Origin: Chryseobacterium joostei
GTDB lineage: Bacteria > Bacteroidota > Bacteroidia > Flavobacteriales > Weeksellaceae
Assembly: GCF_003815775.1 (NCBI RefSeq)
Contig: NZ_CP033926.1
Location: 1,116,001-1,180,000, forward strand
Direction of reading: 5' to 3'
DNA: 64,000 bases
Position 1 is the stretch's first letter. Each line of letters opens with the position of its first letter. The notes beneath the pieces were generated by a model. The model had not been told where the DNA came from and searched no databases. It saw only the letters and a list, made by a program, of their open reading frames with translations. This document shows positions 8,267 through 21,813 of the stretch, piece by piece. The position numbers were made by a program, and so were the translations under genes.

Positions 8267-8274
8267 TATATTTG
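8267..8274 (+). promoter_or_regulatory. Possible -7 promoter box just outside the DUF559 unit
   Basis: TATATTTG fits TAnnTTTG exactly, with TTTG at 8240-8243 upstream (23 bases apart, slightly long). Transcription would begin near 8281, almost exactly where the left inverted repeat begins. Confidence 0.35.
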
Positions 8275-8281
8275 AATAGAT

Positions 8282-8346
8282 GTACCTTAATTCCCTCTCT
8301 TGGAGGGGTAGATTTCAATGTGTAAGCTTTGAAAGACGGGGTGGTT
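8282..8346. repeat. Left inverted repeat of the DUF559 unit
   Basis: It begins gtac and contains two blocks, ggaggggtagatt (8302-8314) and gacggggtggt (8335-8345). Both recur inverted on the other side of the gene. Within it ccctc/gaggg and tttcaa/ttgaaa can form small hairpins. It ends 13 bases before the start codon. Confidence 0.8.
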
Positions 8347-8359
8347 AATAAACACAACG

Positions 8360-8806
8360 ATGAAAGAAATCCTCATCACCATCAACGGAATTCCAATCCG
8401 CAGGAATTTCGTAGAAAACCTCCCCTACAACTCCTATTTAAAAGTATTATTAAAAGAAAAGCGAAAAGCCAGAATTCTGGGTGAAGTTCTTTTCTGGAAA
8501 AAAGTTCGTGCAAAAAGCTTCCATGCTATTGATTTTGACAGGCAAAGAATCATTGGGAATTATATTGTTGATTTTTATGTAAAAGCATTAGGGCTTGTTA
8601 TTGAAATTGACGGTTCAAGCCATGATGAAAAACAAATTTATGATGGTATAAGAGAGGAATATTTAAAGTCTTTAGGGCTGTTTATTTTCAGAATTACAGA
8701 TTTTGATGTGAGGAATAATTTAAGTGTTGTGATGAAGGAGTTAGAGGATTTTATTGTGCTGCACTATGGAACTATCCCTACCACCCCGTCTTCAAAAATT
8801 AGTTAA
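8360..8806 (+). CDS. DUF559 (Vsr-like, PD-(D/E)XK fold) endonuclease domain protein
   Basis: A 148-residue protein. The DUF559 core spans about residues 25-120: the helix with Glu in ILGEVLFWKKVRAK, then a strand with Asp in IIGNYIVDFYV and the E-x-D strand in GLVIEIDGSSH, followed by DGIREEYLKSLGLFIFRITDFDV. This is the pattern of very-short-patch-repair-like nucleases. The C-terminal tail, about residues 140-148 (TIPTTPSSKIS region), is encoded by the right inverted repeat, and TAA at 8804-8806 lies at the edge of a hairpin loop. Such proteins are common in flavobacteria as solitary genes. It is on the plus strand among minus-strand genes, as expected of an inserted unit. Its biochemical role is unknown. 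Confidence 0.82.
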   Translation: MKEILITINGIPIRRNFVENLPYNSYLKVLLKEKRKARILGEVLFWKKVRAKSFHAIDFDRQRIIGNYIVDFYVKALGLVIEIDGSSHDEKQIYDGIREEYLKSLGLFIFRITDFDVRNNLSVVMKELEDFIVLHYGTIPTTPSSKIS

Positions 8807-8845
8807 TTTTTGAATCCACCCCTCCTTTGGGGGGGAATTTTGTAC
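8779..8845. repeat. Right inverted repeat of the DUF559 unit
   Basis: It contains accaccccgtc (8780-8790) and aatccacccctcc (8813-8825), inverted matches of the left blocks (the second with one mismatch), and ends gtac at 8842-8845. Between the blocks is a perfect 10-base hairpin with a 4-base loop (8791-8814). A second hairpin, cccctcc/ggggggg with one G-U pair, follows at 8819-8835. Confidence 0.8.
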
Positions 8846-8878
8846 TTACGAATAGGATCGTTATTCAACATAAAAAAA

Positions 8879-21459: not shown

Positions 21460-21813
21460 ATGCAAAAACCACCCCTCCATAAAAGTTTTCTCAATGCTTT
21501 CCGCGGTGTTTTTGCAATGATAAAGACGGAAAGAAATTTCCAGATCGAGTTTCTGGCTTTTCTTATCAATTTGTTTTTAATTTTTTATTTAAAGCTTTCC
21601 AATCTTGATGCAGCCATTATTCTCCTTGCCTCAGTTGGTGTTTTAAGTGCTGAAATTTTCAATACCGCCATTGAAAAGATCTGTGATATCATTCAGCCTA
21701 ATTTCGATAAAAGAATAGGCTTTATTAAGGATATTTCAGCAGGGGCTGTGGTATTAGGGGCTGCAGTTTCTGTAGTAATCGGCGTTCTGGTTTACGGAAA
21801 ATATATTTTTTAA
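21460..21813 (+). CDS. dgkA: Diacylglycerol/undecaprenol kinase
   Basis: A 117-residue DagK-family integral membrane kinase. Three membrane segments lie at about residues 30-45, 49-66 and 90-112. The catalytic helix AEIFNTAIEKICD carries the conserved Glu, Asn and second Glu of the family (E-x-x-N-T-A-I-E). An N-terminal amphipathic stretch (FLNAFRGVFAMIKTERNFQIE) has the usual RG and E-N residues. In Gram-positive bacteria this family phosphorylates undecaprenol; in Gram-negatives it recycles diacylglycerol. Which applies here is open. Single gene on the plus strand. Confidence 0.9.
   Translation: MQKPPLHKSFLNAFRGVFAMIKTERNFQIEFLAFLINLFLIFYLKLSNLDAAIILLASVGVLSAEIFNTAIEKICDIIQPNFDKRIGFIKDISAGAVVLGAAVSVVIGVLVYGKYIF

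Follow-up and report, generated by a model that had tools for sequence, protein, structure and literature searches.

Inverted palindromic repeats around a DUF559 nuclease gene of Chryseobacterium recur across phyla and suggest a largely overlooked type of mobile DNA

The locus examined here raises the question of what holds a small nuclease gene and the two inverted repeats around it together. In the window, the 64-kb stretch of Chryseobacterium joostei DNA that was analysed as a whole, a forward-strand gene at 8360..8806 encodes a DUF559 (PF04480) Vsr-like nuclease of 148 aa (Pfam E=3e-22), with a forward-strand repeat to its left (8290..8346) and an inverted, reverse-strand repeat overlapping its right end (8779..8839). 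The left repeat is composed of an outer palindrome (8290-8308), an inner hairpin (8313-8334), the tetramer GACG (8335-8338), which is the complement of the tag CGTC, and a third-strand block GGGGTGG (8338-8344); the right repeat is composed of CCACCCC (8781-8787), CGTC (8787-8790), an inner hairpin (8791-8814) and an outer palindrome (8819-8839). The whole unit, gene and both repeats, spans 8290..8839 of the forward strand. We conclude that this is probably a self-contained mobile unit of ~0.45-0.6 kb, in which inverted copies of a palindromic repeat enclose one DUF559 nuclease gene. Gene and repeats are found together in many phyla, the block stands in unrelated contexts, active-site residues are kept and carrier genomes are richer in repeats. 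Judged by sequence and structural modelling, the unit appears REPtron-like, with an enzyme that resembles a homing endonuclease and not a tyrosine transposase.

The initial annotation had described inverted repeats of about 65 bases around a single gene, and these indeed stand there, with inverted pairs at 8328-8345/8780-8797 (18 nt, 89%) and 8302-8314/8813-8825 (13 nt, 92%). Allowing at most one mismatch, GACGGGGTGGTT occurs at 2 sites in the 64-kb window, both at the unit ends, where 0.06 would be expected, and no second repeat half was found in the window beyond the unit; a lone stray GGAGGGGTGGTTT lies at 21466-21478 (1 mismatch). Read toward the gene, each repeat follows the order outer palindrome CCCCTCC-n-GGAGGGG, TRG, inner hairpin, GAC and GGGGTGG, the outer palindromes of the window repeats being slightly degraded from this form. 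The opposite strand of each reads CCCCGTC-stem-CCA-CCCC, with CGTC at the foot of the hairpin. The last residues of the protein, TIPTTPSSKIS, are encoded within the right repeat, where the TAA stop codon (8804-8806) adjoins the hairpin loop, as had been proposed; RNA folding likewise agrees with the suggested end-to-end pairing of the mRNA, with 38 of the 52 paired bases of 8275-8349 pairing with the right repeat. Across the 4.9 Mb of the window genome, the strict repeat pattern is found twice, both times at this unit, and the loose pattern five times.

Across the genus, the loose repeat pattern is present in 125 of 148 genomes, copy numbers over the whole set being 0 to 35, and the reversed control pattern has 3 matches in the same 148 genomes. 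PF04480 matches were detected in 98/148 genomes; since the control signal was seen only in Caulobacter and Corynebacterium, though the controls include E. coli and K-12 ycjD is annotated as DUF559, this search seems to miss true members and the tallies are lower bounds. We examined 91 DUF559 loci of the genus, with rows weaker than ~2e-16 and the loci G059:C1:1566449 and G121:C53:7397 excluded, and they comprise 81 of the window's subfamily, 8 of a second subfamily and two long proteins. When framing was defined as inverted repeats on both sides, matching the pattern with at most three and at most two substitutions in its halves, 72/81 loci of the window's subfamily were framed on both sides, 6 on one side and 3 on neither. 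Framing was absent from the second DUF559 subfamily (0/8), Y1-transposase loci (0/30) and pseudo-sites (0/80), a single repeat being present at 5/80 pseudo-sites. The same layout is shared by 66 left and 74 right repeats of the genus; their inner stems differ freely, with 49 distinct cores on the left and 50 on the right, and their G-rich blocks are kept.

Upon partitioning the 89 single-domain loci by synteny, we obtained groups of 39, 27, 8, 6, 5, 3 and 1, so the 81 loci of the framed subfamily do not each stand for a separate insertion. The 27 loci of one group occupy the same place as that of the window, and the 39 of another are next to the same urocanase gene (identified by Pfam) with DUF559 reversed; together, 66/89 loci adjoin this urocanase gene. 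The nuclease gene is mostly single-copy per genome in the genus, and with 66/89 loci at one place, movement within the genus is therefore rare or old. Both flanks agree with those of the window's locus in ~13/39 loci of the reversed group. The two orientations beside urocanase (27 and 39) resemble an inversion of the unit, but in the cases compared the outer flanks are unmatched, which makes separate insertion or flank turnover equally possible. In one urocanase gap (L133), a REPIN-like repeat pair with a short spacer lies beside a complete unit.

We inspected 11 genomes without the full gene at the urocanase place and located both flanks in 10 of them. Some unit-free relatives retain a single ATTCCCCTCC-n-GGAGGGGAAT palindrome at the unit's place, such as G031 (L186), which has a perfect-arm palindrome ATTCCCCTCC-AGA-GGAGGGGAAT where the unit would sit, and G145 (L174), which has a degenerate palindrome between flanks that are 91-95% identical. 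The palindrome is recognisable by eye in 6/10 unit-free sites and either half lost or wholly absent in the other 4. A short DUF559-coding stretch is retained at the site in G133, and some of the absence is therefore loss. This comparison places gaatag-like hexamers and GTAC-like tetramers outside the unit. In the window, TATATTTG occupies 8267-8274, gaatag is found at both 8274-8279 and 8850-8855, and the initial annotation had noted the hexamer and a terminal GTAC at both ends; both motifs are present, but neither stands as a unit end or target duplication. The close genome G145, which has no unit, retains gaatag and gaataa, and GCAC and GTAC, on its two flanks; at the filled site L070, gaatag stands on one side, the left, and GTAC is missing. 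A TAnnTTTG box, from which the transcript had been proposed to begin at the left repeat, is also present but lies outside the unit and is not the unit's own promoter; it is kept in the gene-free L180, L186 and L198 and altered in G145.

Next, we compared repeat numbers between the 77 genomes that carry the window's subfamily (intact or decayed) and the 66 that do not, leaving 5 partial cases of the 148 out. With two repeats subtracted for carriers, the median number of dispersed repeats is 9 in carriers and 1.5 in non-carriers (Mann-Whitney p=4e-8, kinship ignored), and at least three dispersed repeats are found in 64/77 carriers versus 28/66 non-carriers (Fisher p=6e-7, kinship likewise ignored). 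Zero repeats are observed in 5/77 carriers (beyond the two) and in 21/66 non-carriers, and 26 genomes outside the carrier count, 3 of them undecided, have at least 5 repeats. One dispersed repeat that we followed (L303-L332) is orthologous and old rather than newly inserted, and one genome is without it. Its entire stem differs between genomes (CAAATCTTCGATTTG, CAAAAATTCTTTGAATTTTTG, CAAAAATTCAAAGAATTTTTG) and the tag and G-rich blocks are mostly kept, an exchange that suggests conversion or hairpin inversion. Two apparent local duplications were also seen. In G108, for which no PF04480 match is listed, three repeats (C1:2187382, 2187646 and 2187910) follow one another in exact 264-base steps and one orientation, like a tandem amplification, and at L031 the repeats at 1500 and 2023, 523 bases apart, have ~identical 45-base flanks, indicating that the repeat was duplicated as part of a longer segment.

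In the wider class Bacteroidia, matches were found in 54/99 genomes, and the free-standing loci examined have inverted repeats in 14/22 cases versus 0/22 far pairs, 3 of these 14 pairs (L348, L350, L354) not being of the G-rich type. By hand count, 35 of the 135 Bacteroidia matches listed lie in open frames of at least 700 aa. We examined 28 such long-frame loci, 26 of the 35 and two from the genus search, and in 25/28 the DUF559 domain lies inside the host protein; L351, L363 and L375 were excluded, the match in the chosen frame being partial or terminal. The hosts of the 25 in-frame copies are LeuS (11), MetH (6), Acs (3), HsdR (2), RecG (1), MutS (1) and a SpoIIE-type regulator (1), named by Pfam in 16 cases and by a match to the window genome's LeuS in 9. 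At the two ends of the inserts, inverted-repeat scores of at least 15 were obtained for 14/25 copies versus 0/21 controls, with 11/25 below 15. No splicing domain was found in the 16 interrupted proteins scanned.

The inserts recur at particular places. Those in MetH lie before the B12-binding domain (3) or inside the activation domain (3), and those in LeuS at two places (6 and 5): all 6 at the first site come after residue 295 of the reference LeuS, and the five at the second site lie in its 534-553 loop. The LeuS of the window genome itself is uninterrupted. The LeuS insert L054 (G044, of the window's genus) has ~six extra loop differences from the reference, and the ends are therefore inexact. 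No second LeuS-grade match was found in any of the 11/11 genomes with interrupted LeuS, and two other genomes examined have an uninterrupted LeuS. The interrupted genes of G152 and G160 run to contig ends, and in G232 the last part lies in another frame, with a stop. In a tree of the nucleases, built on ~105 residues and with uneven supports, several near zero, the in-frame copies stand mostly apart from the free-standing ones, with L335 and L353 as exceptions. Over 24 in-frame tips, a count that L353 is outside of, host-site labels require 16 changes (shuffled mean 16.3) and host-gene labels 11 (shuffled mean 12.3). The shared LeuS site, together with a tree that is unsorted by site, is the clearest indication of movement and fits what a mobile unit would produce.

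To cover other phyla, we scanned GTDB with a protein pattern and took the best 80 of 583 loci, chosen by protein alone. They are mostly from Proteobacteria, with Chloroflexi, Methylomirabilota, Portnoybacteria, Bipolaricaulota and others also represented. Among these best 80 loci, a triplex motif is found within 250 nt on either side in 63/74 and on both sides in 37/74, compared to 1/64 for windows 1 kb further out and 1.1% for shuffles. Inverted local-alignment scores of at least 18 between the flanks were obtained for 52/75 loci versus 3/72 far pairs, five of the best 80 having been dropped for short flanks, and for 51/74 versus 1/65 when only N-free flank pairs were used; mismatched flank pairs from different genomes also score 18 or more in 15%, owing to the similarity among the repeats themselves. 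A typical cross-phylum repeat reads CCCTCTCCC-n-GGGAGAGGG-TTGGGGTGAGGG and contains the motif of Holder et al. In the 15 of 42 DUF559 records of a plasmid collection that were read, which include Alphaproteobacteria, Neisseria, Photobacterium and Deinococcus, the strict triplex motif lies within 250 nt in 12/15 and on both sides in 6/15, the far-window control covering the GTDB loci and not these 15. The strict pattern found nothing at L213, L214, L217 and K-12 ycjD, where palindromes are seen by eye or by a looser search. Third strands point toward the gene in most units and outward in the LeuS insert L054. Among 332 asymmetric hairpins, the tail fits only a mirror image in 29 and only a direct copy in 6, most fitting both, a weak comparison because most purine arms are near-symmetric.

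Further evidence comes from the protein itself. The window protein scores 78.9 bits against PF04480 (curated cut-off 20.6); it has no match to TIGR00632, the Vsr mismatch endonuclease family, for which two relatives reach 17.5 and 13.9 bits with a cut-off of 97.85. A profile built from 13 relatives and searched against the PDB matches 3HRL (E=1e-35) and the homing endonuclease 3R3P (E=6e-7). In the AlphaFold2 model (pLDDT 84.7, pTM 0.80; residues 141-148 below 50), Foldseek ranks 3HRL (N. gonorrhoeae NGO0050) first and 3R3P (I-Bth0305I) second, and its match to Vsr (1VSR) is weak (E=0.22). The predicted fold is thus of the PD-(D/E)XK type of I-Bth0305I and more distantly of Vsr; YcjD was treated as a PD-(D/E)XK member already in 2005, according to the available part of PMC1189080. 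Residues E42, Q62, D71, E82, D84, H88 and D95 are unchanged in 25/25 in-frame copies. Foldseek ranks 3-9 are mitochondrial ribosome proteins from Toxoplasma and Tetrahymena that match the nuclease fold, and among the best 120 protein matches the named relatives are almost all from Chryseobacterium. An anti-phage system was also considered and rejected, the PADLOC matches among four proteins being weak (best E 7e-8).

From these observations, we infer that the protein cuts or copies its own repeats. A repeat could fold on one strand during replication, as a hairpin or a hairpin with a third strand; the nuclease would cut the folded structure, or a target resembling its own palindrome, and host repair would fill the break with a copy of the unit or of one repeat, much as happens in homing. 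Such homing-like copying is the most likely route because the nuclease has a homing relative, sites are used recurrently and the unit holds no other gene; single-strand excision, as in IS200/IS605 elements, is an alternative. Single repeats and inverted pairs would then be non-autonomous progeny of the unit; REPs and REPINs are the non-autonomous progeny of RAYTs. Loss of a unit could proceed by recombination between its two outer palindromes, leaving one palindrome behind. The initial annotation had envisaged a REP/RAYT-like unit with a Vsr-like nuclease, and this idea is supported in part: further repeat copies exist in genus genomes both with and without a DUF559 gene, DUF559 homologues elsewhere have similar flanking repeats across phyla, the in-frame copies within housekeeping genes indicate movement, and unit-free sites exist, although they did not confirm GTAC or gaatag as ends or duplication. 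The unit may also be autonomous, as it had been called.

We regard it as unlikely, yet worth weighing, that the repeats move or arise otherwise, by replication slippage or host enzymes, and that a homing-type DUF559 gene merely invades repeat pairs. Such an invasion would fit repeats that are more numerous than genes and also occur gene-free, a nuclease close to a homing endonuclease (3R3P), and the intragenic CGTC REPs that the accessible part of PMC3733652 describes without a nuclease gene; however, the unit-free sites seen retain at most one palindrome and no repeat pair, and nuclease and repeats occur together in many phyla even where the repeats differ greatly in sequence. A role in host repair or genome maintenance, in which DUF559 would resolve hairpin or triplex DNA and the repeats would regulate or police their own gene, seems distinctly improbable. 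The 3' repeat does overlap the stop codon in the window, and it has been reported that Caulobacter VsrA (DUF559) causes an SOS response when the methylase ScmA is absent (PMC12907096) and that triplex loci are unstable in E. coli (PMC4666352), but regulation predicts neither two-sided repeats nor in-frame copies in LeuS, MetH, Acs, RecG and MutS, and the subfamily is patchily present, in 77/148 genus genomes. That the repeats belong to RAYT (Y1) transposases, with an incidental link to DUF559, is very improbable: Y1 genes occur in 129/148 genus genomes, yet repeats flank 0/30 of the Y1 loci examined, the window genome has repeats without a Y1 match, and Di Nocera et al. (PMC3733652) likewise report that CGTC units flank no gene for a tyrosine transposase. 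Chance or ordinary terminator hairpins, common as intergenic hairpins are, can practically be dismissed given the far windows (1/64 for the best 80 of 583 GTDB loci), shuffles (1.1%), pseudo-sites (0/80) and second subfamily (0/8).

The preferred reading, a mobile unit of one nuclease gene and two repeats, can be compared to several known systems. As far as the available text of PMC8266576 and PMC3733652 goes, REPtrons (RAYT/TnpAREP with REPs) likewise have a mostly single-copy gene between inverted palindromic repeats, with related repeats dispersed, some as inverted pairs, and gene presence tracking repeat number; they differ in having an HUH tyrosine transposase in place of the Vsr-like PD-(D/E)XK-type nuclease and the tag GTAG in place of CGTC, and the units described here have in-frame housekeeping copies. 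CGTC REPs, in the account given by the accessible part of Di Nocera et al. 2013 (PMC3733652), occur in five phyla including Bacteroidetes, apparently without a dedicated transposase, and share with our repeats the CGTC stem foot, the CCA tail, inverted pairs and in-frame intragenic copies; the main text of that paper contains no mention of DUF559. The window and dispersed repeats show these features as CCCCGTC-stem-CCA, in some stems with a last C that can pair. The stems of CGTC REPs are 8-9 bp with a 4-5 nt loop; a simple rule gives uninterrupted stems of 2-11 bp here. The intrastrand triplex motifs TM and TMECO, in the available text of PMC4666352, likewise combine a pyrimidine arm, a purine arm and a mirror-image third strand, and triplex formation by TMECO in solution was demonstrated there; that text reports no mobility gene near TMECO, whereas the motif here frames DUF559 genes and has a copy just downstream of K-12 ycjD. 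I-Bth0305I (PDB 3R3P) is alike in sequence, fold and the recurrent use of the same sites, in contrast to which the DUF559 genes here are palindrome-bracketed, with no intron or intein seen around them. Rickettsia RPE-4 and RPE-6 are also palindromic repeats in frame within protein genes, described in the accessible part of PMC3733652 as repeats alone, whereas in the present units two repeats enclose a nuclease gene. Within the literature covered, to which subscription journals and preprints do not belong, so that an earlier report is possible, none of the 14 papers that mention DUF559 deals with such repeats, judging by titles and the opening lines of abstracts, and words beginning with 'palindrom' are absent from the text of PMC12907096.

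We hold it to be an even prospect that two orphan repeat superfamilies, CGTC REPs and intrastrand-triplex motifs, have their missing dedicated enzymes in the DUF559 nucleases. These nucleases would then define a minimal class of mobile elements across bacteria, consisting of one Vsr-like nuclease and two structure-forming repeats, with splicing-free, in-frame entry into single-copy housekeeping genes and with solo and paired repeats as progeny; ycjD would be a domesticated member, accounting for TMECO instability. This would join two published open questions, CGTC REPs without an enzyme and triplex motifs without a source of mobility, into one testable hypothesis. DUF559 is widespread, Pfam still lists it as a family of unknown function, and K-12 ycjD and the structure 3HRL make testing easier. 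The in-frame copies in LeuS, MetH, Acs, RecG and MutS show how proteins can acquire large inserts that they apparently tolerate and, if the nuclease copies its own repeats, the unit would be a second kind of REPtron with a different chemistry.

Finally, we examined ycjD in E. coli, where at least 80% of a 900-base query region around the gene is present in 3362/5426 genomes. In K-12, the gap between ycjD and fabI contains one triplex motif, and a similar hairpin covers part of the gene's 3' end; the strict triplex pattern misses both of these and finds nothing upstream. In Sphingomonas parapaucimobilis (L208), the annotation places a palindrome-flanked DUF559 gene between sufB and sufC.
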